Shown piece by piece: positions 6,016 through 55,491 of a DNA stretch of 64,000 nucleotides. Origin of the DNA: Arthrobacter sp. Marseille-P9274 (GTDB lineage Bacteria; Actinomycetota; Actinomycetes; Actinomycetales; Micrococcaceae); contig NZ_CAMPOV010000001.1 of the NCBI RefSeq assembly GCF_946892675.1, positions 532,033-596,032 of the forward strand. Reading direction: 5' to 3'. Numbering within the stretch: position 1 is the stretch's first letter; each line of letters opens with the position of its first letter. The notes under the pieces are model-generated. The model was not told the DNA's origin. It saw only the letters and a list, made by a program, of their open reading frames with translations, and did no database searches. Position numbers and translations under genes: made by a program.

Positions 6016-8265
<2,250 letters not shown>

Positions 8266-8314
8266 CTATTGGGGTCTCGATATTCAACTTACCCGAGGTG
8301 CGGGCGTTGATCTG

Positions 8315-9982
8315 TCAGTGGAAGAAGTGGCGGGCTCCCGTGAAGTACATGGTGATGCCGGCCGCGTTAGCCGCCGCGACGACTTCCTCGTCCCGCACGG
8401 AACCGCCGGGCTGCACCACAGCGCGGACGCCGGCGTCGATCAGGATCTGCAGTCCGTCCGCGAACGGGAAGAAGGCGTCCGAGGCGGCAACAGCACCGCG
8501 GGCCCGCTCCGGAGCACCGGCGCCCTCGACGTTGGCCGCGCCGCCGGCTGCGTCAGCGCCGCCGTCGACGGCCACACCCAGGGTGTTGGCCCGCTCCACG
8601 GCCAGCTTGCACGAGTCCAGCCGGTTGACCTGCCCCATGCCGATGCCGACGGCGGCGCCGTCATGGGCCAGCAGGATCGCGTTGGACTTGGCAGCCCGCA
8701 CGGACTTCCAGGCGAAGGCAAGGTCGGCCAGGGTCGACTCGTCCGCGGCCGGACCTGCCGCTAGCGTCCAGTTGGCCGGGGCGTCGCCGTCGGCCTCCAG
8801 CGTGTCCGAAACCTGGACCAGCACGCCGCCGGAGACCTGGCGGATTTCGGCCGGGTCGCGCCGGTAGCCTTCGGGCAGCGTCAGCAGCCGGATGTTCTTC
8901 TTCCGGGACAGGATCTCCACGGCCTCCGGCTCGAAGTCCGGCGCGATGACGACCTCCGTGAAGATGTCCTTGACCGTGTTGGCCATGCCGGCGGTGATCG
9001 TGCGGTTGGCGGCAATCACGCCGCCAAACGCGGAAACCGGATCGCAGGCATGGGCCTTGGCGTGCGCGTCAGCGATCGGGTCCTCGGCGCCCGGCGTCGC
9101 CACCGCCACGCCGCAGGGGTTGGCATGCTTGATGATCGCCACCGCGGAGTCGGCATGGTCGAAGGCGGCGCGCAGCGCGGCGTCCGCATCGACGAAGTTG
9201 TTGTAGCTCATCGGCTTGCCGTGCAGCTGGTCCGCCTGGGCGATGCCCGGGGTGGCACCGTGCTCGACGTAGAGCGCGGCCGCCTGGTGCGGGTTCTCGC
9301 CGTACCGCAGCACCTCGGAGCGCTCCAGCGCCAGGCCGGCGTACGGCGGCCAGGCCTTACCTTCCTCGGTACCGTCGCCGAACTGCGCCGCGGTCCAGCT
9401 GGCGACTGCGTTGTCGTACGCAGCGGTGTGCGCAAACGCGGAAGCCGCCAACCGCCGTCGTGCGTTAAGGTCAAAGCCGCCCTCCGCAGCCGCGGTGACA
9501 ACCTCCGCGTACCTCGAGGGATCAACGACGACGGCGACGCTCGGGTGGTTCTTGGCTGCGGCGCGGACCATCGACGGGCCGCCGATGTCGATCTGCTCGA
9601 CGACGTCGTCCTCGCCGGCGCCGGACTTCACGGTGTCCACGAACGGGTAGAGGTTCACGACCACGAGGTCGAAGGCCTCGACGCCGAGTTCCTTCAGCTG
9701 GGCCACGTGGTCGTCGCGGCGGCGGTCCGCCAGGATGCCGGCGTGGACGCGCGGGTGCAGCGTCTTCACCCGGCCGTCCAGGCACTCCTGGAAGCCGGTC
9801 ACCTCCGAGACCTCGGTGACGGGCACGCCCGCCTCGGCGATCCGCTTGGCGGTGGAGCCGGTGGACACGATGCTCACGCCGGCCTTGTGCAGACCCTGAG
9901 CGAGTTCCTCCAGCCCTGTCTTGTCGTAGACCGAGATCAGGGCCCGGTGGATGGGAACACGGTCAAGCTGCTTCAAGCTCAC
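8315..9982 (-). CDS. purH: Bifunctional AICAR transformylase / IMP cyclohydrolase
   Basis: A 555-residue enzyme for the last two steps of purine synthesis. The MGS-like IMP cyclohydrolase domain is at about residues 10-150 ([27 protein letters not shown]). The AICAR transformylase domain follows, with [24 protein letters not shown] and the C-terminal [12 protein letters not shown]...RHFFH. It is some 25-30 residues longer than most homologues because of an Ala/Gly-rich insertion between LAVERAN and the [12 protein letters not shown] block. The GTG start at 9982 follows GGAG by five bases. purN and perM, normally adjacent, lie 3.7 kb upstream. Confidence 0.97.
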
Positions 9983-41946: not shown

Positions 41947-42921
41947 TCAAAGTAGTTCTTTGGTGCCGAAGCGCCGGACGTAGAGGATGACCAGGGCGAG
42001 GATCGCCAGCATCAGCACGAAGGACAGCGCGGAGGCGCCGGGATAATCCACCACGCGGAAGAACCTGGAGTCGATGACCTGGCCGATCATGGTGGTGTCC
42101 TGGTTATTGCCCAGCAGGGCCGCGTTGATGTAGTCGCCGGACGCCGGGATGAAGGTCAGCAGGGTTCCGGCCATCACGCCGGGCATGGACAGCGGCAGCG
42201 TGACCGTCCGGAAGGTCTGGAACGGACTGGCGTACAGGTCGTTGCCGGCCTCGATCAGCCGGGTATCCAGCCGCTCCAGGTTGGCATAGATCGGCAGCGT
42301 CATGAAGGGCAGGAAGTTGTAGGTCAGGCCGCAGACCACAGCGAAGGCCGTGGCGGTCAGCCGACCGTCCTCGGGCAGCAGGGACAGTGCGCGCAGCACG
42401 GCCACCACCGGGCCTTCGTCGGCCAGGATCTGCTTCCAGGCCTGGGTCCGCAGGATGAAGCTGGTGAAGAACGGCGCGATGATCAGCACCAGCAGGATGC
42501 CCTGCAGCAGCTTCCGCCCGCGCAGCCGGACCGCCACCAGGTAGGCCATCGGGTAGCCGATCAGCAGCGCCGCGATCGTGGCGACGAGGGCGAAGGCGAA
42601 GGAGCGCAGCAGCTCCTGCCAGTAGGCGCCGAGCACGTCGGCGTAGTTGCTGAACTGCAGCGCCGGCACGAACTGGCCGACGTCGGCGCCCGGCGGCTTG
42701 GTGTAGAGCGAGGTGGCCAGCAGCGAGAACACCGGCAGCACGAAGAACAGCAGCATAAACGCGAAGCCGGGCAGGATCAGCCAGTAGCCCGTCCGGCCGC
42801 GGCGGCGGTCGGCTCCGATTTCGCCGGCGCTGCGGGGGTCCTTCCGGCCGCGCCGGGCGGCATTGCCGGGCAGGTCCTGTGCGTCCGGAATGTTGCCGTG
42901 GTTGCGGGCCAGCAGGCTCAT
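41947..42921 (-). CDS. potB: Polyamine ABC transporter permease, PotB type
   Basis: A 324-residue permease. After a hydrophilic 60-residue N-terminus, YWLILPGFAFMLLFFVLPV begins the first helix. The conserved block NFLPFMTLPIYANLERLD and the EAA loop EAGNDLYASPFQTFRTVTLP are typical. FIPASGDYINAALLG matches PotB-type proteins. ATG 42921 overlaps the end of potA by ATGA, so translation is coupled; a longer frame to 43185 is only potA antiphase. It pairs with PotC. Confidence 0.9.
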   Translation of the reverse strand: MSLLARNHGNIPDAQDLPGNAARRGRKDPRSAGEIGADRRRGRTGYWLILPGFAFMLLFFVLPVFSLLATSLYTKPPGADVGQFVPALQFSNYADVLGAYWQELLRSFAFALVATIAALLIGYPMAYLVAVRLRGRKLLQGILLVLIIAPFFTSFILRTQAWKQILADEGPVVAVLRALSLLPEDGRLTATAFAVVCGLTYNFLPFMTLPIYANLERLDTRLIEAGNDLYASPFQTFRTVTLPLSMPGVMAGTLLTFIPASGDYINAALLGNNQDTTMIGQVIDSRFFRVVDYPGASALSFVLMLAILALVILYVRRFGTKELL

Positions 42922-44096
42922 GGCGCCGCGGCTCCCGCGGCCTCGGCCGCGCCGGCGCTGGAGTCCTCGCGGCCGTCCAGTCCGAAGGCGTGCGCTGTGT
43001 CCCAGCAGAGCACGACCTCGTCCCCCGGCCGGGCCAGCTGCTGTCCGTGGTTCTGCGAGAACACGCCGAGCCGCCCCACTCCGGCGACGTCCACCAGGTA
43101 GTCGGTGCTGACGCCGGTGAACGACGTATCCGCCACGCGGCCGTGCAGCATGTTGTCCGGGTCCCCCACGGCGTCCTGCGGCCACATCATCTTCAGCTTC
43201 TCCGGCCGGATGCCCACCAGCACCCGCCCGTGGTGCATGGCGGCCCGTTCCTTGAGCACGGTGAGCCGGTTGTCCCGGGCATTAACGACGACGGCGTCCC
43301 CGCGGTCCTCGACCACCTCACCGGGGACGAGATTGGACTTTCCCAGGAAGTTCGCCACGAAGGCGGTGCGCGGAAGCTCGTAGAGTTCCCGCGGTGCGCC
43401 CATCTGCTCCACCCGGCCGGCGTTCATCACGGCGACCGTGTCCGCCATCGTCATGGCCTCTTCCTGGTCGTGCGTGACGTGCACGAAGGTCAGGCCGACC
43501 TCCAGCTGGATGTTCTTCAGCTCCACCTGCATCTGCCGGCGGAGCTTCATGTCCAGGGCGCCGAGCGGCTCGTCCAGCAGGAGCACGGCCGGCCGGTTGA
43601 CGATGGCGCGGGCCAGGGCCACGCGCTGCTGCTGCCCGCCCGAGAGCTGGGCCGGACGTCGGGCGGCCAGGTGGCCGAGCTCCACCAGCTCCAGGGCGGT
43701 CCTGGCCTGGGCCTCGGCGCCGCGGACCTTGCGGCGCTTCAGGCCGAAGGCCACGTTGTCCAGCACGCTCATGTGCGGGAACAGCGCGTAGTTCTGGAAC
43801 ACGGTGTTGACCGGCCGCTCGTGCGCGCCGGTGCGGGTGATGTCCCGGCCGCCGATGCGCAGCGCGCCGGAGGTGGGCTGCTCCAGCCCCGCCACCATGC
43901 GCAGCGTGGTGGTCTTGCCGCAGCCGGAGGGCCCGAGCAGCGCGAAGAACGAGCCCGCCGGTATGGTCAGGTCCAGCTCGTCCACGGCGACGAAGTCGGC
44001 GAACCGCTTCGTGACCGAATCCAGGACGAGGTCCGCTCCCCCGCTGTCCCGGCCCGCCGCCGTCGTTGTTTCCTCCGCAAGGTGTTCCTGGACCAT
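42918..44096 (-). CDS. potA: Polyamine ABC transporter ATPase, PotA type
   Basis: A 392-residue ATPase. Walker A is GPSGCGKTT at 55-63, the signature LSGGQQQR lies near 148, and Walker B is [12 protein letters not shown]. All are intact. The C-terminal TOBE domain (about 280-370, with [10 protein letters not shown]) fits PotA-like importers. ATG 44096 overlaps the potD stop by one base. A longer frame running to 44750 is noise from the potD gene. It energises PotB-PotC. Confidence 0.93.
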
Positions 44097-45310
44097 CAAT
44101 TGCCGATCGCTTTCTGGAACCGGTCGCTGAAGTCCGTCTCCTCTTCCGCGGACAGGGTGCGCAGCACGTGGGCGTTGGCGAGGAAGTCCTCCGTGGGGAA
44201 GATCAGCGGGTTCTCCACCAGCTCCGGATCGATGGCCTCCATGGCCTCGCGGGCGCCCTCGACCGGGCAGATGTAGTTTACGTACGCGGCCACGGTGGCG
44301 GCGTTCTCCGGATCGTAGTAGTAGTCCATCAGGGCTTCCGCGTTGGCCTTGTGCGGGGAGCCGATCGGCACCATCAGGTTGTCCGACCAGAGCGTGCCGC
44401 CGGCGTCCGGCAGGGCGAACTCCCACTTGTCGCCCTCTTCGAAGTTCAGCTGCGTGATGTCTCCGGACCAGGCGATGACGGCGAGCGCGTCGCCGGAGAT
44501 CAGGTCCTCCTTGTAGGAGTTGCCCTTGACCTGCCGGATCTGGCCGTCCGCGATCTGCTTGCTGAGGACGTCCAGCGCGCTGTCGAATTCGCCAGTGCCC
44601 CACTCGCCGGAGATGTCCACGCCGTTGTCCAGCATTAGCAGGCCCATCGTGTCGCGCATTTCGTCCAGCACCTCCACGCGGCCCTTGAGCTCCGGCTTCC
44701 ACAGGTCCGCCACGGTACGCAGGCCGCCGGGGACGGCCTGCTTGTTCCACGCGATCCCGGCGAACCCGGACTGCCAGGTCAGCGAGTGCTTCCGGCCGGG
44801 ATCGAAGTCCACGTTCCGGAGGGTCTCCAGCAGGTTCTTGGAGTTGGGGATGTTGCCGAGGTCCAGCTCCTGCGTGTAGCCGAGGCGGATCAGCCGGGCG
44901 GCCATCCAGTCCGTCAGCGTGATGATGTCCTGGCCGATGTCCTGGCCGGCGGCGAGCTGCGCCTGCACCTTGCCGAAGTAGGTGTCGTTACCGTCGATGT
45001 CTTCGGAGTAGTTGGCCTGGATGCCGCGGGACTTGGAGAAGGCCTCCAGCGACGGGTACGCCTGCGCCTTGTCGTCGTAGTCCAGGTAGAGGGTCCAGTT
45101 GGCCCAGTTGACCACCCTGTCGGCATCCGACCGGTCCGCGGCTGCGGTCGGGCTCCCGTCCGCGGCCGACGTGCCGGAGCCGCCCGTTCCGCAGGCCGCC
45201 AGCAGCCCGGCCAACGTCAAGGCGCCGGTGCCCATGAGCATGTTGCGGCGCGAGAGCTGGGCGGATACCAGGCGGCGCAGGCGGGGGTCGTCGGGTAGGC
45301 GCTGTGGCAT
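44096..45310 (-). CDS. potD: Polyamine-binding lipoprotein, PotD type
   Basis: A 404-residue solute-binding protein. The N-terminus has a twin-arginine motif SRRNML (20-25) followed by a hydrophobic core and lipobox LAAC (Cys40), so it is probably a Tat-exported lipoprotein. The mature part has NWANWTLYLDYDDK, YSEDIDGNDTYFGKVQAQL, VIAWSGDITQ and PIGSPHKANAEALMDYYYDP, which match PotD/PotF. Aromatic and acidic residues in these blocks bind polyamines. AGGAG precedes ATG 45310. It leads the four-gene uptake operon. Confidence 0.92.
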   Translation of the reverse strand: MPQRLPDDPRLRRLVSAQLSRRNMLMGTGALTLAGLLAACGTGGSGTSAADGSPTAAADRSDADRVVNWANWTLYLDYDDKAQAYPSLEAFSKSRGIQANYSEDIDGNDTYFGKVQAQLAAGQDIGQDIITLTDWMAARLIRLGYTQELDLGNIPNSKNLLETLRNVDFDPGRKHSLTWQSGFAGIAWNKQAVPGGLRTVADLWKPELKGRVEVLDEMRDTMGLLMLDNGVDISGEWGTGEFDSALDVLSKQIADGQIRQVKGNSYKEDLISGDALAVIAWSGDITQLNFEEGDKWEFALPDAGGTLWSDNLMVPIGSPHKANAEALMDYYYDPENAATVAAYVNYICPVEGAREAMEAIDPELVENPLIFPTEDFLANAHVLRTLSAEEETDFSDRFQKAIGN

Positions 45311-45383
45311 GTGGGCTCCTGGTCAGAGGCGGATGCTGTTGTGCCGTCGATACTGGCAGACCCCCAACACGCAGACAAGGTTT

Positions 45384-45413
45384 TCAGTTGTAAATTTTTT
45401 GTTACTCAACTGA
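45384..45413. promoter_or_regulatory. AT-rich dyad in the potD / lrp divergent promoter
   Basis: TCAGTTG-N16-CAACTGA, a perfect 7-bp inverted repeat around an A/T-rich centre (TAAATTTTTTGTTACT), lies between the divergent potD and lrp genes. Lrp/AsnC proteins favour such sites, so the neighbouring regulator may control both directions. The rest of the 222-base gap shows no gene. Confidence 0.5.
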
Positions 45414-45532
45414 TCTCATCGTCGGATTGGCGATTTTCCACTGGTTCCGCAGCCTAAGGGTCTTGCGCACGCCGCCGCCAACGACTTCAATAGCAGCATT
45501 CCCACGAAGCCTTCGAAGGAGGTGGAACTCCC

Positions 45533-46018
45533 TTGAGCACCCAGCACGGCAGCGGCGCCGTTCCCGGGACGAACGGCCCGATCGACGACGTCTCCAAGGC
45601 GATCATCGAGCAGTTGCAGGAAGACGGCAGGCGGTCCTACGCGAACATCGGCAAGGCCGTCGGGCTCTCCGAGGCGGCCGTGCGGCAGCGGGTCCAGAAA
45701 CTCACGGACGGCGGCGTGATGCAGATCGTCGCCGTGACGGACCCCCTGCAGCTCGGCTTCTCGCGCCAGGCCATGCTGGGAATCAAGGCCGACGACGATC
45801 TGGTGGCCGTTGGCGACAGGATCGCGGCGCTGGACCAGGTGGACTACTGCCTGGTCACCGCCGGTTCCTTCGACATCCTGGCCGAAGTGATCTGCGAGAA
45901 CGACCATGACCTGCTGCGGCTCATCACCGAGATCCGCGGCATCGACGGCGTTCTCAGCACGGAAACGTTCATGTACCTCTCCCTGCGGAAGCAGGAATAC
46001 AACTGGGGAACCCGATGA
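45533..46018 (+). CDS. Lrp/AsnC-family transcriptional regulator
   Basis: A 161-residue regulator with an N-terminal helix-turn-helix (about 20-65: DDVSKAIIEQLQEDGRRSY, VGLSEAAVRQRVQKL). The C-terminal RAM/AsnC ligand domain covers about 80-155. TTG 45533 is chosen because GGAGGTGG precedes it. It overlaps the following aminotransferase gene by ATGA, so the pair is co-translated, and it is divergent from potD. It likely senses an amino acid or amine of this pathway. Confidence 0.9.
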   Translation: MSTQHGSGAVPGTNGPIDDVSKAIIEQLQEDGRRSYANIGKAVGLSEAAVRQRVQKLTDGGVMQIVAVTDPLQLGFSRQAMLGIKADDDLVAVGDRIAALDQVDYCLVTAGSFDILAEVICENDHDLLRLITEIRGIDGVLSTETFMYLSLRKQEYNWGTR

Positions 46019-47418
46019 CTCAAACCAGCACCGAACGAACCTACAGCACGCCGCGCGGCACCGACCGCCAGCAGGCGGCCCGCGACCACTTGTGGATGCA
46101 CATGGCCCGCCACTCCAACCTGGCCGGCGGCGGCACCGTGCCCGTCATTACCCGCGGCGAGGGCCACCTGATCTACGACGACCAGGGTCGCGAATACATC
46201 GACGGCCTGGCCGGGCTCTTCGTGGTCCAGGTGGGCCACGGGCGCGAGGAGCTCGCGCAGGCTGCGGCCCGGCAGGCCCGGGAGCTGGCATTCATGCCGC
46301 TCTGGTCCTACGCCCACCCGGCCGCCATCGACCTGTCCGAGCGGTTGGCGCACCACGCCCCCGGCGACCTGAACCGCGTCTTCTTCACCACCGGCGGCGG
46401 CGAGGCGGTGGAGACGGCGTGGAAGCTGGCCAAGCAGTACTTCAAGCTGCAGGGCAAGCCGAACAAGACCAAGGTCATCTCCCGTGCGGTGGCCTATCAC
46501 GGCACCCCGCAGGGGGCGCTGTCCATCACCGGGATCCCGGACATGAAGGCCCCGTTCGAACCGCTCGTGCCCGGCGCCTTCCGGGTCCCGAACACCAACC
46601 AGTACCGCGCACCGGAGGGGCTCGAAGACCCGGAGGCATTCGGCCGCTGGGCCGCGGACCGCATTGGCGAGGCCATCGAGTTCGAGGGACCCGACACCGT
46701 CGCCGCCGTGTTCCTGGAGCCGGTGCAGAACTCCGGCGGCTGCTTCCCGCCGCCGCCCGGCTACTTCCAGCGCGTCCGGGAGATCTGCGACGAGTACGAC
46801 GTCCTGCTGGTCTCGGACGAAGTGATCTGCGCGTTCGGCCGGATCGGCTCCATGTTCGCCAGCGACGACTTCGGCTACATCCCGGACATGATCACCTGCG
46901 CCAAGGGCATGACCAGCGGCTACTCCCCCATCGGCGCCATGATCGCGTCGGACCGGCTGTTCGAGCCGTTCAAGCACGGGGACACGACGTTCTACCACGG
47001 CTACACGTTTGGCGGCCACCCGGTCTCCGCCGCCGTCGCCATGGAAAACCTGGACATTTTCGAGCGCGAGGGCCTCAATAACCACGTGAAGCAGAACGCG
47101 CCCCTGTTCCGCGCCTCGCTGGAGAAGCTGCTGGACCTGCCGATTGTCGGAGACGTGCGCGGCGAAGGCTACTTCTACGGCATCGAACTGGTCAAGGACA
47201 AGGCCACCAAGGAGACCTTCACGGATGATGAATCCGAGCGGCTGCTCCGGGGCTACCTCTCCAACGCGCTGTTCGACGCCGGTCTCTACTGCCGCGCCGA
47301 CGACCGCGGTGACCCCGTGGTCCAGCTCGCTCCCCCGCTGACGATCGGCCCGCGGGAATTCGACCAGATCGAGCAGATCCTTCGCTCCGTCCTGACGGAG
47401 GGCCTGAACCACCTGTAG
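46015..47418 (+). CDS. Class III aminotransferase, putrescine/amine-pyruvate type
   Basis: A 467-residue PLP enzyme. PLP-binding features are TTGGGEAVETAWKLA, AVAYHGTPQGALS, LVSDEVICAFGRIG and the Schiff-base lysine in ITCAKGMTSGYSPIGA. The N-terminal MHMARHSNL is typical of the omega-amino acid:pyruvate group that includes SpuC. With the uptake operon and Lrp gene adjacent, amine transfer from putrescine or a similar diamine to pyruvate is likely. The alternatives, GABA or beta-alanine, cannot be ruled out. Confidence 0.88.
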   Translation: MTQTSTERTYSTPRGTDRQQAARDHLWMHMARHSNLAGGGTVPVITRGEGHLIYDDQGREYIDGLAGLFVVQVGHGREELAQAAARQARELAFMPLWSYAHPAAIDLSERLAHHAPGDLNRVFFTTGGGEAVETAWKLAKQYFKLQGKPNKTKVISRAVAYHGTPQGALSITGIPDMKAPFEPLVPGAFRVPNTNQYRAPEGLEDPEAFGRWAADRIGEAIEFEGPDTVAAVFLEPVQNSGGCFPPPPGYFQRVREICDEYDVLLVSDEVICAFGRIGSMFASDDFGYIPDMITCAKGMTSGYSPIGAMIASDRLFEPFKHGDTTFYHGYTFGGHPVSAAVAMENLDIFEREGLNNHVKQNAPLFRASLEKLLDLPIVGDVRGEGYFYGIELVKDKATKETFTDDESERLLRGYLSNALFDAGLYCRADDRGDPVVQLAPPLTIGPREFDQIEQILRSVLTEGLNHL

Positions 47419-47607: not shown

Positions 47608-48297
47608 ATGTCGCATTTTGATGAGGATGACGACGGGAAAGATCGGGGCTTGGGCGGAACGGTGCTCAGCCGGCGGCAGCTCGGGCTGCTGTTCGGCGGC
47701 GGCGCCGCCGTCATCATCGGCGGCGCCGGCTTCGGCGTCGTCGCGAAGACGGTCCAGCACGCCCAGGTCCAGGCCGGAACGGCGTTCGGCTCGGTGCGGC
47801 TGCTGCGTGCCGCGCGGCTGGCCCGGCTCTCGGCCGACGGTTCGCGCTCGCCGCTGGTCGGGCGGCTGGCGCTGGCCAGGCTGTCGGGCGACAGCGTCCC
47901 AATCGCCGGGGCCGGCGTCGGGATCGCGGTGCCGGCGGCTACCGGCCACGGTCACGGCGGCGCAATTCCGGGCCTGCGGTGGCCGCAACCGGAGAACCAC
48001 ACCTGGGGCGATATCGTCCTGCTCGAGCTCGAAGTGGCCAATACCGGGAGCGCGCCCATGCCGTTCTCGCCGGGCCAGCTGCGGCTGCGGCCGGCCGGAA
48101 ACGCCATGAGCACCAGCCTGCAGGACTCGGGCCGGGATGCGGGTCCGCTGGCACCGGGAGCCGTTGAGCACGTATGGGTCAGCTTCCTGGCGCCCGAGAC
48201 GGCCGGGCGGTTCATCGTCGAATTCACCGATCCGCTGCAGGACAGCGTGGCGGAACTGCGCGTGCCCGAACTCGTCACCGTGATGGAGCGATCATGA
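47608..48297 (+). CDS. Tat-signal protein, partner of the multicopper oxidase
   Basis: A 229-residue protein of no recognised family. The acidic N-terminus is followed by SRRQLG (21-26) and a glycine-rich hydrophobic segment to about 48, a twin-arginine signal or anchor. The outside part has a His/Gly cluster GHGHGG (113-118) and a beta-rich C-terminal half (LLELEVANTGSAPMPFS) reminiscent of copper-chaperone or cupredoxin-like folds. GGGGGAGG lies upstream of ATG 47608. It overlaps the oxidase gene by ATGA. It could guide and load the oxidase, which has no signal of its own; that is inference. Confidence 0.7.
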   Translation: MSHFDEDDDGKDRGLGGTVLSRRQLGLLFGGGAAVIIGGAGFGVVAKTVQHAQVQAGTAFGSVRLLRAARLARLSADGSRSPLVGRLALARLSGDSVPIAGAGVGIAVPAATGHGHGGAIPGLRWPQPENHTWGDIVLLELEVANTGSAPMPFSPGQLRLRPAGNAMSTSLQDSGRDAGPLAPGAVEHVWVSFLAPETAGRFIVEFTDPLQDSVAELRVPELVTVMERS

Positions 48298-50726
48298 GCG
48301 CCCTGGACATCCACATCAATGACGGCTACCTGCCGATGGTCGACGGCTCGCTGGTCTACCATCGCGGCTACGGCGAACGCCACACCGCCACAACCGATCC
48401 TGAACCGGCGTTGGCCCTGGGCCCGCACGTGTTCACCCGGGACGGCGGCGTGGTGGAGACCCGCCACTACCCGCTGGACGCCGAGCTCCCGCCGCTCGGC
48501 CGGCCCGAGCCGGCCTACAAGGATCCGTTCAATCCCGGCGAGTACCTGGTCCGGCGGGCATTCTGGGCCAGCTTCTACCCGAAGCGCGCGCTCATCGCCG
48601 AAACCGGCAGCACCATCCGGCTCCGGGTGCGGAACAACCTCGCCCAGCCGCAGGCCCTGCAGTTCCTCGACGTCGACGGACCCGGCACCCATGTTGGAAC
48701 CGGGAGCATCGCTCCCGGCGACGATGCGGAGCTGGAGTTCGAGGCGCCTGCCCCGGGCACCTACGTCTACTGCGATCCCGGCCGCGACGAAGACGACCCG
48801 ACGGCCGATCCGGTGCAGCGCATCCTCGGCCTGTACGGAGCGCTGCTGGTCACGGACCCCGACGAGCCGTGGCGCCTGCAGCCGGAGGGGCCGGAGTTCG
48901 AGCGGCAGTGGCTGTGGATCCTGCACAACGTGGATCCGGAGTGGGCCCGCCAGGCCTCGCGCGGCGTGGAGGTGGACCCGGACAAGACGCCGGCGTTCCC
49001 GCGCTACTTCACGCTGAACGGCCGCGCTGGCTTCCAGTCACTGGGCATCAGCACCGACGAAGCGCTCAACGAAGAGCGCGAAGAGGACTCGCTGATGTCC
49101 GGCTCCGCCCGCTCCATCGACGTGCGGAACTTCAGCCAGCGCGCCACGGATGACACAGTGCGGACCGGCCAGCTGATGCGCTTCGTGAATGCCGGCGTGG
49201 TCCACCACCAGCTGCACTTCCACGGAAACCACATCTGGACCGTCCGCCGCAACGGGACGTTCTTCCCGCGCAGCGGCGGCTTCGTCGACGACGAGAACCA
49301 CGTGGTGCTGCAGCAGTGGGAGGATGTGGTGGAGGTCCATCCGCTGGACCGCAAGGACTCCGTCCTGCCCGTGCGCCGCCCGCCCGAGGCTACCGACCAG
49401 ATCTGGGACGCCAGATCCGGCGACTGGCACTATCCGATGCACTGCCACGCGGAACCGTCGCAGGTTGCCCGAGGCGGCATGTATCCCGGCGGGCTGGTGG
49501 GCCACTGGACCGTGGCCGAACCCGCGGATGTGCCGGTGCCTCCGGAGGGGGCGCTTCCGCCGCCCGGGCCTAATGCCGAACCGCCGCGTGCCCTGACCGC
49601 AAAACCGGGCACTGCCATCAAGCCCCCGGACCACAAGCGCTACCGCACCCAGGTGGATTTCAGCTCGGACCAGATCCACGAGGGCAGCCCGAAGACCGAG
49701 TTCCCGCTCAAGGCGGACCGCAAGGAAGAGTTCGATTTCTTTAGCCGCAAAATGAAGTTCGACGACGGCGGCCGCTTCGAGATGTGGACCTTTGAGACGG
49801 AGAACTCAGGCCGGATCTTCCCCGCGCCGCTGCTGCGGCTCACCGAAGGCCAGCTCTTCCAAGGCACTGTTAAGCCCAGCAAGAAGGTCCACACCATCCA
49901 CTGGCACGGCATCGAACCCGATCCGCGCAATGACGGCGTCGGCCACACCTCCTTCGAGGTGTCCGGACACTACACCTACCAGTGGCGGCCGGAGCGCGGC
50001 CGCCCGGGCAACCCGAACTTCGGCTCCTCGGGAACCTACTTCTACCATTGCCACGTCAACACTCCGCTTCATGTGCAGATGGGTATGTTCGGCCCGCTGA
50101 TCATCGACCCGTACGTGCATCCCGACTATCCGGTTAGCCCGGGCGCCCGTCGGGCTTTCGTGGACGGACCTGAATATGACATTGCTACGGAGACTCTATT
50201 GGTCGCCTATGCCGTCGACCCGCGGTGGCACGAAATGAACCATGCAGAAGGCCTGTCCGGCGAGGACGCCCGCCTGGACAAGTTCGATCCCAAGCATTTC
50301 TACCTGCTCGGCGGCGAACTGGCCAAGCGGCCCCGGAAGGAGGGCCCGCTGATTCTGTCTTCCATGCGGGCCAATGTGGCAGGCAACGGCCGGAAACCGA
50401 CGCTGCTACGGCTGCTCAACGGCGAGTTCTTTCCGGTCAACGCCTACTTCACCGACATGGCCGGCAACCCCGTACGCATGGCCGAGCTGATTTCGCACGA
50501 CGGCCGGGCCTTCCGCGACACCTCGGACCCGGTCGGCCCTGCGCTGCCCGTGGGCGAGACGGACGGCCCGCTCACGGCCTCGGCACTGAACTTCGGAGCC
50601 GCCGAACGCTACGACATGCTGCTGCGCCCGCCGGTGCCGGGAAAGTACAAGCTGACCGTCGAGCTCACGCATTGGATCACGACGGCGGTGCTCGCCAAGC
50701 GGGAAATCATCGTCACCGCGAGCTAG
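48294..50726 (+). CDS. Large multicopper oxidase
   Basis: An 810-residue multicopper oxidase, larger than the usual 450-550 residue laccases because it contains two sets of cupredoxin motifs. The first set has HHQLHFHG (304-311) and HYPMHCHAE (379-386). The second has IHWHG (535-539) and YHCH (584-587) with a following Met (about 596-598), completing a type 1 site. It begins MSALDIHIND with no signal peptide, so export would depend on the Tat partner encoded upstream, which overlaps it by ATGA. It probably oxidises phenols or metal ions outside the cell. A longer upstream frame is only antiphase of the partner gene. Confidence 0.88.
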   Translation: MSALDIHINDGYLPMVDGSLVYHRGYGERHTATTDPEPALALGPHVFTRDGGVVETRHYPLDAELPPLGRPEPAYKDPFNPGEYLVRRAFWASFYPKRALIAETGSTIRLRVRNNLAQPQALQFLDVDGPGTHVGTGSIAPGDDAELEFEAPAPGTYVYCDPGRDEDDPTADPVQRILGLYGALLVTDPDEPWRLQPEGPEFERQWLWILHNVDPEWARQASRGVEVDPDKTPAFPRYFTLNGRAGFQSLGISTDEALNEEREEDSLMSGSARSIDVRNFSQRATDDTVRTGQLMRFVNAGVVHHQLHFHGNHIWTVRRNGTFFPRSGGFVDDENHVVLQQWEDVVEVHPLDRKDSVLPVRRPPEATDQIWDARSGDWHYPMHCHAEPSQVARGGMYPGGLVGHWTVAEPADVPVPPEGALPPPGPNAEPPRALTAKPGTAIKPPDHKRYRTQVDFSSDQIHEGSPKTEFPLKADRKEEFDFFSRKMKFDDGGRFEMWTFETENSGRIFPAPLLRLTEGQLFQGTVKPSKKVHTIHWHGIEPDPRNDGVGHTSFEVSGHYTYQWRPERGRPGNPNFGSSGTYFYHCHVNTPLHVQMGMFGPLIIDPYVHPDYPVSPGARRAFVDGPEYDIATETLLVAYAVDPRWHEMNHAEGLSGEDARLDKFDPKHFYLLGGELAKRPRKEGPLILSSMRANVAGNGRKPTLLRLLNGEFFPVNAYFTDMAGNPVRMAELISHDGRAFRDTSDPVGPALPVGETDGPLTASALNFGAAERYDMLLRPPVPGKYKLTVELTHWITTAVLAKREIIVTAS

Positions 50727-50826: not shown

Positions 50827-52437
50827 CTAGAGTCCCTGCAGCCTGTGGACCAGCAGCGCCACGTGCAGGGATGTCCGCGATTCGGCGTCGTCGAGGCGCA
50901 CCCCCAGCCGCTGCTCCAGCCGGGCCAGCCGGGCGTACAGCGTGGGCCGGCTCAGGTACCCGCTGCGGGCCAGTTCCGACTTGTTGCCGCCGCTCTCGAG
51001 GTACCGCTGCAGCAGGTCCAGATCCCCGCCGTCGTTCCCGGACTCCAGCACGCCGGCCAGCTCGGCCTCCACGAAGGTCTGCACGCGCGGATCGTGCCGC
51101 AGCAGAGTGAGCAGGCCGCGCAGCCGGACGTCGGTGGAGCGGTAGAAGCGTTTGGCGCCGGCGGGCAGCGTGCTCGCGGTCTCGGCGACCTGGCCGGCTT
51201 CATCCAGCCCGGCGGCCGCCTGCAGCAGCCGGGCATGCGGGCGGCCCACTCCGGCGGTCCAGCGGAGATCCTCGGCGGCGCCGGCGGACCGGTCGGCCAG
51301 CTCGCCGCAGATGCGTTCCAGCACGGAGTCCTCCAGCTGCCGTGCGGGCAGGGCCAGCAGCACGGCGACGGAGCCGGTCTGCAGGCTGGCGGCGAGCGCC
51401 GAGTTCCGCGAGGCGGCCAGCACCCGGTTGACCAGTTCCAGCAGGGCGCGCTCGCGGCGCTGCAGGGCGATGGGTTCCGAGGCGGAGGCGTGGTCCAGGC
51501 GCAGCACCACCGGCACGTAGAGCGGGGCCGGCGGCAGCCCGAGGGCGGCGGCGCGCGTCAGCGCCTCCGCCTCGTCCAGTGAACGCGGCTGGCGCAGCTC
51601 GTGCAGGAGGCCGGCCTGCGCCTGGTGGCCGAGTTCGCGCTGGTCCCGCTCCGCCATCCGGTTGATGGTCAGCGCCTGCCCGGCCCGCTCCAGCACCATC
51701 GCCGCCTCCGCCTCATCGCCGGGCAGGCCCGGCACCACGAGCCGGCCCCAGCGCTGGCCGCGCAGTCCCACCGGTGTCTGCAGCCAGCCCTCGTCGCCGG
51801 TGCGCGCGGTCTCCTCGCGGAAGTGGGCGGCCCGGGACCGGCGCTTCCAGTCCGCCAGCAGGTCCCCCGGCGCGGTGCCGGCGGGGTCGAAGGCGAGGAC
51901 CAGGTGGGCGACGTCCTCGAGCACGACGGCGGTTTGGATCAGCTCTGCAGTGCGCGCGACGATCTCCTCCGGCGAGGCGCTTTCGAGGCTGAGCATGGTG
52001 AAGACCTCGTGCACCTCGCGGGCCTTCTCCACCCGTTCCAGCTGGGCGGCGACGATCAGCCGGTGCACTACCTCTGTCACTTCCACGAACCTGACCCGCC
52101 GCGTCACCACCACCACAGGCAGCGCTGCACCGCCAGCGGCCTGCCGCAGTGCGGCTTCGGCCTCGGGGCGGTCCGCGGTGATTTCGACGACGACGCCGGC
52201 GGCCCCCAGCGCGGCCAGCTCACCCAGGTAGCGGGCGGCTTCGGCGGCCGAGGTGCCGAAGCCCAGGCCGGTGGTCAGGACGAGCTCGCCGCCTTCCAGC
52301 AGACCCGCGAGGCTCTTCAGCTCAGCGACGTGGACCCAGCGGACCGGCTCCTGCAGCCGGCCGGTCCCGGACAGCACCTCCGGGCGGCCGGAAGCCAGCG
52401 GTGGCAGCCGCAGGATGCGCTCGAGCGTGACATGCAT
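50827..52437 (-). CDS. PucR-family transcriptional regulator
   Basis: A 536-residue regulator. The N-terminal PucR domain (about 5-125) includes the LVLTTGLGFG stretch. A GGDEF-like middle follows, and a C-terminal helix-turn-helix is at YLESGGNKSELARSGYLSRP and QRLGVRLDDAESR, with the tail VALLVHRLQ. ATG 52437 (MHVTLERIL) fits family starts. It is divergent from mmsA, 132 bases apart, and probably activates the mmsA-aminotransferase operon in response to a beta-alanine-like effector. Confidence 0.9.
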   Translation of the reverse strand: MHVTLERILRLPPLASGRPEVLSGTGRLQEPVRWVHVAELKSLAGLLEGGELVLTTGLGFGTSAAEAARYLGELAALGAAGVVVEITADRPEAEAALRQAAGGAALPVVVVTRRVRFVEVTEVVHRLIVAAQLERVEKAREVHEVFTMLSLESASPEEIVARTAELIQTAVVLEDVAHLVLAFDPAGTAPGDLLADWKRRSRAAHFREETARTGDEGWLQTPVGLRGQRWGRLVVPGLPGDEAEAAMVLERAGQALTINRMAERDQRELGHQAQAGLLHELRQPRSLDEAEALTRAAALGLPPAPLYVPVVLRLDHASASEPIALQRRERALLELVNRVLAASRNSALAASLQTGSVAVLLALPARQLEDSVLERICGELADRSAGAAEDLRWTAGVGRPHARLLQAAAGLDEAGQVAETASTLPAGAKRFYRSTDVRLRGLLTLLRHDPRVQTFVEAELAGVLESGNDGGDLDLLQRYLESGGNKSELARSGYLSRPTLYARLARLEQRLGVRLDDAESRTSLHVALLVHRLQGL

Positions 52438-52569
52438 TGACACAGTGTAAACCAGACCGCCGTTCTCCTGACAGTCTGGCAATGGTGCGTGCGGGTCCGA
52501 AAGGCGCAGGATGGTGTCAGCGGCAGACCACCGGCCAGTTTCACCAGCGAACCATCAGGAGTTTCCTTC

Positions 52570-54060
52570 ATGCAGACCATCCAGCACTGGATCAACGGCG
52601 CCTATGCCTCCCCCGCCGACAGCCGCCACGCGGACGTCACCAACCCCGCCACCGGCAAAGTCTCCGGCCGCGTCGCGCTGGCGAGCGCCGCCGTCGTCAA
52701 CGAGGCAGTGGCCGCGGCCGCGGGTGCCTTCCCGGCCTGGCGCGACACCTCGCTCGCCCGGCGGGTCCAGATCCTGTTCAACTTCCGCGAGCTGCTCAAC
52801 GCCCGCAAGGGCGAGCTCGCCGCCATCATCACCGCCGAGCACGGCAAGGTCCTCGACGACGCCCTCGGCGAAGTCAGCCGCGGCCAGGAAGTCGTGGAAT
52901 TCGCCTGCGGCATCCCGCACCTGCTCAAGGGCGGCTACACGGAGAACGCGTCGACGAAGGTGGACGTGCACTCGATCCGCCAGCCGGTGGGTCCGGTGGC
53001 GATCATCAGCCCGTTCAACTTCCCGGCCATGGTCCCGATGTGGTTCTTCCCGGTCGCCATCGCCACCGGCAACACCGTGGTGGTCAAGCCCAGCGAGAAG
53101 GACCCGACGGCCGTGAACTGGGTCGCCGAGCTCTGGAAGGAAGCCGGCCTGCCGGACGGCGTCTTCAACGTGGTGCACGGCGACAAGGAGGCCGTCGACA
53201 CGCTGCTGGATCACCCGGAGATCAAGTCGGTCTCCTTCGTCGGCTCCACCCCGATCGCGAAGTACGTCTACGAGAAGGGCACGGCCGCAGGCAAGCGCGT
53301 ACAGGCCCTGGGCGGCGCGAAGAACCACATGATCGTGCTGCCGGACGCCGACCTTGACCTGGCCGCGGACGCCGCCGTCAGCGCCGGCTACGGCTCCGCG
53401 GGCGAACGCTGCATGGCCATCTCGGCGCTGGTCGCCGTCGGCGGGATCGCCGACGAGCTGGTCGCCAAGATCGCCGAGCGCACCCGGACGCTGCGGATCG
53501 GCGACGGCCTGCGCGGCACCGACATGGGCCCGCTGGTCACGAAGGCGCACCGGGAGAAGGTGGCCGGCTACATCGAGGCCGGCGAGGCCTCGGGCGCCAC
53601 CGTGGTGCTGGACGGCCGGCAGGTGAAGGCGGACGCGGAAGGCGACGGCTTCTTCCTCGGCCCGACCCTGTTCGACAACGTCACGCCGGACATGTCCGTC
53701 TACACCGACGAGATCTTCGGCCCGGTCCTCTCCGTGGTCCGCACCGAGACCTACGACGATGCGCTGGCCCTGATCAACGCCAACCCCTACGGCAACGGCA
53801 CGGCGATTTTCACCAACGACGGCGGTGCCGCCCGGCGCTTCGAGAACGAGGTCGAGGTGGGTATGGTGGGCATCAACGTGCCGATCCCGGTGCCGATGGC
53901 GTACTACTCGTTCGGCGGCTGGAAGAACTCGCTCTTCGGCGACAGCCACGCGCACGGCGCCGAGGGCGTGCACTTCTTCACCCGCGGCAAGGTCGTGACC
54001 ACGCGCTGGCTGGACCCGAGCCATGGCGGGCTGAACCTCGGGTTCCCGCAGAACGCCTGA
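52570..54060 (+). CDS. mmsA: CoA-acylating (methyl)malonate-semialdehyde dehydrogenase
   Basis: A 496-residue aldehyde dehydrogenase. The catalytic Cys281 is in GSAGERCMAIS, the oxyanion Asn150 in SPFNFPAMVPMW, and the conserved FFPVAIATGNTVVVKPSE precedes the cofactor site. The C-terminal GGWKNSLFGDSHAHG is diagnostic of MmsA enzymes, which convert malonate or methylmalonate semialdehyde plus CoA to acetyl- or propionyl-CoA. ATG 52570 has AGGAG upstream. It forms an operon with the next aminotransferase, so malonate semialdehyde from beta-alanine is the expected substrate. Confidence 0.93.
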   Translation: MQTIQHWINGAYASPADSRHADVTNPATGKVSGRVALASAAVVNEAVAAAAGAFPAWRDTSLARRVQILFNFRELLNARKGELAAIITAEHGKVLDDALGEVSRGQEVVEFACGIPHLLKGGYTENASTKVDVHSIRQPVGPVAIISPFNFPAMVPMWFFPVAIATGNTVVVKPSEKDPTAVNWVAELWKEAGLPDGVFNVVHGDKEAVDTLLDHPEIKSVSFVGSTPIAKYVYEKGTAAGKRVQALGGAKNHMIVLPDADLDLAADAAVSAGYGSAGERCMAISALVAVGGIADELVAKIAERTRTLRIGDGLRGTDMGPLVTKAHREKVAGYIEAGEASGATVVLDGRQVKADAEGDGFFLGPTLFDNVTPDMSVYTDEIFGPVLSVVRTETYDDALALINANPYGNGTAIFTNDGGAARRFENEVEVGMVGINVPIPVPMAYYSFGGWKNSLFGDSHAHGAEGVHFFTRGKVVTTRWLDPSHGGLNLGFPQNA

Positions 54061-54111
54061 GGCAGCGCGCCCAGCCCACCGCCGTCGTCGTTGTTAGAAA
54101 AGGAGACCTGA

Positions 54112-55491
54112 ATGACCACCACCGCAGCGCACACCGGCGCCGAGGTCAGCGAGGCCGAGCTCGAGGCCGGCCGGCGCGCCTACGAGCTGGACCGCAAGCA
54201 CGTATTCCACTCCTGGTCCGCCCAGGAGCAGATCAAGCCCATGACCATCACCCGCGCCGAGGGCTCCTATGTCTGGGACGGCGAGGGCAGCAAGCTGCTG
54301 GACTTCTCCTCGCAGCTGGTCAACACCAACATCGGCCACCAGCATCCGAAGGTCGTCGCGGCGATCCAGGAGCAGGCAGGCAAGCTGTGCACGGTCGCCC
54401 CGCAGCACGTCAATGACGCGCGGTCCGAGGCGGCGCGGCTGATCGCCGAGCTGACGCCGGGCGAACTGGACAAGATCTTCTTCACCAACGGCGGCGCGGA
54501 CGCGGTGGAGCACGCCATCCGGATGGCACGGCTGCACACCGGCCGCTACAAGGTGCTCTCGGCCTACCGCTCCTACCACGGCGGCACCGCGCTCGCCGTC
54601 AACGTGACCGGGGACCCGCGCCGCATCCCCAACGACTACGGCAACGCCGGCACGGTGCATTTCCACGCGCCGTTCCTGTACCGCTCGCAGTTCCACGCCT
54701 CCACCGAGGCCGAGGAAACCCAGCGCGCACTGGAGCACCTGGAAACGACCATCCAGCTCGAGGGCGCCGACCGTTTCGCCGCGATCATCCTGGAGTCCAT
54801 CCCGGGCACCGCCGGCATCATGGTCCCGCCGCCGGGCTACATCCAGGGCGTGCGCGAGCTGGCCACCAAGTACGGGATAATGTTCATCGCGGACGAGGTC
54901 ATGGCCGGTTTCGGCCGCTCCGGCAAGTGGTTCGCGATCAACCACTTCGACGTGGTGCCGGACCTGTTGACCTTCGCCAAGGGCGTGAACTCGGGCTACG
55001 TCCCGCTCGGCGGCGTGGCCATGTCCCCGGAGATCTACGCGACCTTCGCCGACCGGGCCTACCCGGGCGGGCTGACCTACTCGGGCCACCCGCTGGCCTG
55101 CGCGGCCGCCGTCGCAACCATCAACGCGATGCGGGACGAGCAGATGGTGGAGCATGCCGCTGACCTGGGCGAAACCGTCTTCGGGCCGGGGCTAGCCGAG
55201 CTATCCGCCAAACACCCTTCCATCGGCGAGGTCCGCGGCGTCGGCGCCTTCTGGGCGATCGAGCTGGTCAAGAACCAGCAGACCCGGGAGCCGCTCGCGG
55301 CCTACGGCGGTTCCAGCCCCGCGATGAATGAGCTGATCGGCGCCTGCAAGTCCCGCGGGCTCCTGCCGTTCGCCAACTTCAACCGCATCCATGTGGTCCC
55401 GCCGCTGAACATTTCGGCGGAAGACGCCCGGGCCGGCCTGGCCATCCTGGACGCGGCCCTGGAAACGGCGGACAAGCACGCCGAAGGCTGA
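54112..55491 (+). CDS. Class III aminotransferase, beta-alanine-pyruvate type
   Basis: A 459-residue PLP enzyme. Motifs are TNGGADAVEHAIRMAR, YRSYHGGTALAV, IADEVMAGFGRSG and the lysine in LLTFAKGVNSGYVPLG. It follows mmsA at 51 bases with AAAAGGAG before the ATG. Making malonate semialdehyde for MmsA is the best fit, but taurine or GABA relatives have similar motifs. The N-terminal FHSWSAQEQIKPM is shared with this beta-alanine/taurine group. It is followed by a GC-rich hairpin region and a decayed gene on the other strand. Confidence 0.87.
   Translation: MTTTAAHTGAEVSEAELEAGRRAYELDRKHVFHSWSAQEQIKPMTITRAEGSYVWDGEGSKLLDFSSQLVNTNIGHQHPKVVAAIQEQAGKLCTVAPQHVNDARSEAARLIAELTPGELDKIFFTNGGADAVEHAIRMARLHTGRYKVLSAYRSYHGGTALAVNVTGDPRRIPNDYGNAGTVHFHAPFLYRSQFHASTEAEETQRALEHLETTIQLEGADRFAAIILESIPGTAGIMVPPPGYIQGVRELATKYGIMFIADEVMAGFGRSGKWFAINHFDVVPDLLTFAKGVNSGYVPLGGVAMSPEIYATFADRAYPGGLTYSGHPLACAAAVATINAMRDEQMVEHAADLGETVFGPGLAELSAKHPSIGEVRGVGAFWAIELVKNQQTREPLAAYGGSSPAMNELIGACKSRGLLPFANFNRIHVVPPLNISAEDARAGLAILDAALETADKHAEG

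Follow-up and report, generated by a model that had tools for sequence, protein, structure and literature searches.

A twin-arginine protein as the probable export escort of a signal-less multicopper oxidase in Arthrobacter

The partner and oxidase genes

On the plus strand of a 64,000-nucleotide stretch of Arthrobacter sp. Marseille-P9274 (the window; genome of 4.78 Mb, nearest named relatives Arthrobacter), a small gene overlaps a larger one that encodes a multicopper oxidase without an export signal. The product of the small gene, here called the partner, begins with a twin-arginine sequence. Comparison of the pair with its relatives points with fair confidence to a hitchhiker system of twin-arginine translocation (Tat), in which the partner probably took over the export of the oxidase. 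All window features described below lie on the plus strand, and their positions are those of the window.

The partner gene (47608–48297; ATG at 47608, TGA at 48297) encodes 229 amino acids with a twin-arginine N-terminus, a His/Gly linker and a beta-sandwich. The N-terminal sequence is VLSRRQLGLLFGGGAAVIIGGAGFGVVAKTVQ, and the protein is laid out as a charged start followed by LSRRQLGLLFGGGAAVIIGGAGFGVVA, a flexible stretch with HGHGG and then the sandwich. The Tat-type N-terminus covers residues 1–46 (47608–47745), with the arginine codons at 47671–47676. No AxA cleavage site is evident after the core of the window partner, and in the alignment many relatives have basic residues rather than such a site at this point. 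The His/Gly cluster reads TGHGHGG; its HGH (residues 114–116, 47947–47955) includes H116, which is nearly invariant in aligned relatives. The same alignment shows N145, P155, Q157, R159, S192 and P196 of the partner to be invariant. The C-terminal beta-sandwich (residues 134–220, 48007–48267) is DUF4352-like, as judged from the structure model and Foldseek. The model has a mean predicted local distance difference test (pLDDT) score of 70.5, is confident at about residues 51–70 and 131–220, and bears a modest resemblance to the Listeria protein 4eae (TM-score 0.41) and to YjhA (3cfu; TM-score 0.32, Foldseek E 7.9e-4). The likeness to DUF4352 proteins such as YjhA is one of fold, as PF11611 (DUF4352) scores 17.5 bits on the window partner, under its cut-off of 25.9; the same model matches 14 of 33 partners at E up to 0.01.

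The oxidase gene (48294–50726; ATG at 48294, TAG at 50726) encodes 810 amino acids, and its start overlaps the partner stop in an ATGA of four nucleotides at 48294–48297. The protein belongs to the multicopper oxidase superfamily, with a PF07732 match of 53.8 bits (cut-off 21), the eight histidines of a trinuclear copper site and a type 1 site. It consists of two halves, which some relatives encode as separate genes. The N-half (residues 1–415, 48294–49538) contains HQLHFH (H305, H308 and H310; 49206–49223) and HCH (residues 383–385; 49440–49448), both predicted from their motifs to be copper ligands; the type 1 site of this half is incomplete. The C-half (residues 441–810, 49614–50723), a separate signal-less gene in those relatives, contains HTIHWH (H533, H536 and H538; 49890–49907), in a domain covered by matches to the Protein Data Bank (PDB), and HCHVNTPLHVQMGM (H585, C586, H587, H593 and M598; 50046–50087), which completes the trinuclear set and supplies a full type 1 site. 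All 29 aligned fused relatives share both HxxHxH motifs, both HCH motifs and the HCHVNTPLHVQMGM site without change, and the distribution of these motifs suggests that the trinuclear cluster would lie between the N-half and the C-half.

By our reading the oxidase has four cupredoxin-like regions. In PDB profile searches, copper nitrite reductases and two-domain oxidases match the third region and, more weakly, the first. Unlike those enzymes, the present family has four such regions, occurs as two half-enzymes in relatives and scores far below the cut-offs of the curated models: assignment as CopA (TIGR01480; 52 bits against 478.95), CueO (NF008205; 31.1 against 525) or copper nitrite reductase (TIGR02376; 41.1 against 296.3) was rejected. 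The structure model of the oxidase was unusable as evidence, so the second cupredoxin region was assigned from motifs alone. Profile comparison of the halves gave no convincing sign of an internal duplication (second against third region, probability 16).

Signals, conservation and arrangement among relatives

Relatives of the pair fall into two forms, those with a fused oxidase, as in the window, and three-gene (split) forms in which the N-half, the C-half and the partner are separate. Rows were counted as distinct when not identical over a fixed stretch, a definition under which close relatives still weigh more than once. No signal-like segment was found in any of 38 distinct fused oxidases, as expected of the enzyme chain of a Tat hitchhiker; the highest 16-residue hydropathy ahead of the enzyme domain is 0.99, compared with 1.19–2.19 for signal-bearing N-halves. 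A hidden upstream start was rejected for the window oxidase, since the longer open reading frame (ORF) from 48174 (850 amino acids) is an in-frame extension with a best 16-residue mean hydropathy of −0.93. The partners present the opposite picture: the arginine pair is there in 62 of 63 distinct sequences, and the sole exception (L074) has a broken frame. Alignment columns gave this reading for 56 partners; among the seven left over, L121, L124, L125, L126 and L128 have the pair in a separate reading, L093 has it in an upstream frame, and the last is the broken L074. Two close linker histidines were found in 59 of 59 partners scored out of the 63 (56 by rule; in the other three, judged by eye, the spacing is five), and the cores of these 59 are Gly-rich and weakly hydrophobic, with a mean hydropathy of 1.55 and 33% Gly. 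A twin-arginine signal on the partner is thus indicated by motif and core. Since the four-nucleotide overlap recurs identically in 18 of the 38 fused oxidases, and the arginine pair and linker histidines recur as just given, these features of the pair exceed chance. The gene overlap, the His/Gly cluster and the missing oxidase signal had all been described in the earlier sequence-only reading, and each was borne out.

That reading also held that oxidase homologues with signals of their own would count against it. Such homologues do occur: the N-half has a Tat-like N-terminus in 34 of 38 split rows, the others being L071 and L073, which have no signal, L080, a solitary signal-less N-half, and the broken L072. 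The arginine pair, however, is seldom intact in these 34 signals, with RR in five, KR in one and no pair in 28 (SRWSFVKYGAAAG and similar). None of 33 C-halves, scored from the start beside the N-half stop, is signal-like (highest hydropathy 0.94); scoring covered 33 of 35 rows, as the start of L090 was not located and L149 is cut at a contig end, and the rows include near-copies (L112 of L073, L124 of L139). Some split C-halves contain RR without a hydrophobic core. With the arginine pair missing from 28 of the 34 N-halves and a signal from every scored C-half, the comparison favours an exported enzyme that has become dependent on the partner. In many of the split C-halves (L082:4281-5948, L085, L086, L152, L153 and others) the oxidase domain is preceded by a long starting stretch rich in Lys/Ala/Glu or Arg and by linkers rich in Pro/Thr. 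Frame-broken oxidase copies were seen at L070, L072 and L146, with other oxidase copies in the genomes of L070 and L072.

In a sample of 395 genomes of the family, 39 have the oxidase and 40 the partner; every oxidase genome is among the 40, and both proteins occur in the same seven genera, which answers positively the question of whether the pair is conserved. The sole genome with only a partner (G030) has, beside it, a 48-residue piece matching the oxidase C-terminus. In a phylum sample of 396 genomes, the same two hold both proteins. These counts were made with strict profiles (oxidase E up to 1e-60, partner E up to 1e-8), because a loose threshold (E up to 0.001), at which 18 of 59 relatives match, admits short weak matches. 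Scoring took the best two oxidase and the best seven partner candidates in each genome, which makes the copy numbers lower bounds. Among named genomes, 36 loci were found, most of them in Arthrobacter and others in Zafaria, Herbiconiux, Cryobacterium and several metagenome-assembled genomes (MAGs). Of the Tat translocase, TatC was searched for and found in the genome.

The arrangement of the genes varies. Of the 38 distinct fused oxidases, 18 lie downstream of the partner with the overlap, three are tail to tail with it (L078, L098 and L099) and one is divergent (L068). The genome of the window pair, G000, also holds two of the tail-to-tail oxidases (L098:3538-7415 and L099:3489-7310), each about 0.5 kb from a partner, and a three-gene split system (L100), so that with the window pair it has four systems. 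In four genomes (those of L049, L054, L056 and L059) the only partner found is intact and has no oxidase within 1.5 kb on either side (L106, L105, L108 and L102, respectively); their signal-less oxidases are located elsewhere, unlinked. The genes that flank these lone partners recur at the paired locus L045: what is presumably a glutamyl-tRNA-reductase-like gene precedes the partner, or a MoeB-like gene follows it. Most simply, these loci would have lost the neighbouring oxidase, a natural deletion, and retained the partner for the benefit of oxidases at other sites in the genome.

A tree of the N-halves (74 of 76 distinct rows, with the frame-broken L072 and L146 left out) places first the RR-bearing split forms, which come from three MAGs (Solirubrobacterales, an unplaced member of Actinomycetota, and Nocardioidaceae). 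The fused, signal-less forms make up two supported clades (100/95 and 99/94). The rows nearest to the clade of the window, L071 and L073, are split and signal-less and are themselves weakly grouped (84/18). In L096, a more distant pair from another family, inspection by eye shows an RR N-terminus on the C-half-like chain and a Sec-like N-terminus on the N-half-like chain. At this locus (L096:3801-6384) the two-domain oxidase chains are adjacent and in reverse order, with the C-half-like chain first, and a third related ORF follows at 6394-9447.

Proposed export by the partner and competing explanations

The comparative evidence supports the hitchhiker proposal: partners accompany oxidases in 39 of 39 genomes, they retain the arginine pair (62/63) where fused oxidases have no signal (0/38), and four genomes keep a lone partner. 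The partner also lies next to the oxidase in three orientations, and signal loss accompanies fusion in two clades. From these comparisons we infer the following scheme of complex formation, export, copper transfer, anchoring and direction of change. The partner would bind the oxidase once it has folded, still in the cytoplasm, and would carry the complex through the Tat translocase by means of its twin-arginine N-terminus. Afterwards the partner may be retained as a membrane anchor, a possibility raised because no clear cleavage site follows its core, and its flexible His motif may hand over copper. The ancestral enzyme was probably two-chained: the N-half carried its own Tat signal, the C-half had none, and the trinuclear copper site could form only once the two came together. 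In most three-gene forms the N-half signal would then have lost its arginine pair, and in the group of the window the signal would have vanished and the halves fused, leaving all targeting to the partner.

Several observations weigh against this scheme. Generic Tat models are nearly silent on 33 partners (TIGR01409 matches one, PF10518 one and TIGR02811 two, and none matches the window partner) and were dropped as proof of Tat targeting. RRQLG, like the RRQFG or RRVFG of most relatives, departs at its last position from the TatP pattern given in PMC2758597. The oxidase model is poor (mean pLDDT 57, with residues 195–283 and 291–469 under 50). For 16 of the 38 fused oxidases no partner lies in the stretch examined; in 15 of these cases a partner is found elsewhere in the genome, in some beside another oxidase copy, with L060, L061, L066 and L077 assigned to their genomes through record titles. 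The exception is L062, a fused oxidase from a 3.1-Mb MAG in which the search gave no partner. The MAG of L076, whose split N-half carries RR, likewise gave none. Co-occurrence counts include related genomes and top candidates only. Finally, because the tree is rooted at its midpoint and the outgroup branches are long, the order of change in the oxidase signals is likely, not proven.

The best-surviving alternative, which we consider unlikely, is that the partner, Tat-exported or anchored, is an accessory that encounters the oxidase outside the cell, as its copper supplier, electron partner or surface anchor, and that the oxidase gets there by some other, unrecognised route. Co-occurrence and a His linker would suit any accessory role, as would the partners that are found unlinked. 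Such a route, however, would have to serve 38 fused oxidases and 33 C-halves on which no signal of any kind is recognised, and the N-half signals of relatives are Tat-like rather than of another type: TIGR01409 just misses its cut-off of 16.7 bits on L074 (15.2) and L079 (14.7).

Less probable again, and by about half, is an oxidase that works in the cytoplasm, with a partner that aids copper loading or has a separate membrane role. The missing oxidase signal fits this explanation, and so does a precedent in Streptomyces coelicolor, where a MelC1-like helper, MelD1, pairs with an oxidase that stays inside the cell (PMC2758597). By the same source that helper has no Tat motif, in contrast to 62 of 63 partners here; Tat-like signals on the split N-halves and signal-like starts on both L096 chains also argue for an enzyme that acts outside. 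A third alternative, highly improbable, treats the N-terminus of the partner as a plain membrane anchor that stays uncleaved and is not recognised by Tat, and the pairing as operon inheritance: the near-silence of the generic models and the basic residues in place of an AxA site would suit it, but not the constancy of the arginine pair over a Gly-rich, weakly hydrophobic core, nor independent re-pairing in other orientations and loci.

The preferred hitchhiker reading has a close counterpart in MelC1–MelC2 of Streptomyces, in which the helper provides a signal-less tyrosinase with copper and also takes the enzyme through Tat (PMC2758597). Both systems place a small His-containing protein with a Tat-type signal upstream of a signal-less copper oxidase. 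Unlike MelC1, the partner has a DUF4352-like sandwich and a helper function that is a prediction; unlike MelC2, the enzyme is a multicopper oxidase and not a type 3 tyrosinase. Homology of the partner to MelC1 was rejected, since none of 33 partners matched NF047833 at E up to 10, so the suggestion of a MelC1–MelC2-like arrangement with an unrelated partner fits the data. One N-half (L075) matches the first 36 positions of NF047833 over its signal, with 12.7 of 120 bits. We read the pair as working like MelC1–MelC2 without belonging to that family. PaoABC and HybOC of Escherichia coli likewise combine one signal-bearing subunit with signal-less chains, PaoABC being a three-chain precedent (PMC4273604); they differ in having unrelated proteins and cofactors and an export shown by experiment, where the export proposed here comes from comparison of sequences. 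No description of the partner–oxidase pair was found among the literature matches listed, a search whose scope excluded subscription journals and preprints. In the excerpts concerned, the "hitchhiker" of PMC3578206 is a nitrite oxidoreductase rather than a multicopper oxidase, and PMC9436591, on an Arthrobacter oxidase, does not mention a partner.

A broader proposal, which we offer tentatively and at somewhat less than even chances, is that export escorts unrelated to MelC1 have repeatedly taken over from the Tat signal of their enzyme, with the twin arginines decaying on the oxidase and staying fixed on the escort; that two half-enzymes are joined in the cytoplasm before Tat export; that a His linker feeds copper; and that one escort may serve several unlinked oxidase paralogues in trans. 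To our knowledge, few enzymes have been shown to hitchhike through Tat, and the route by which an enzyme comes to depend on the signal of another protein is hardly documented. The relatives described here appear to show steps along it, from a signal intact on the enzyme, through a broken arginine pair, to a signal gone and halves fused, the last step in two clades and with the twin arginines of the partner kept throughout. On this evidence copper oxidases may have a second type of escort, unrelated to the first, and co-expression with the partner would be advisable when active enzyme is wanted.

No oxidase substrate is proposed from the neighbourhood, because the other loci inspected carry neighbours (at least those listed) that differ from those of the window. 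In the window, the pair is surrounded (42918–47418 and 50827–55491) by genes of an amine or amino acid catabolism type: an ATP-binding cassette importer, Lrp/AsnC and PucR regulators, two class III aminotransferases and an aldehyde dehydrogenase.
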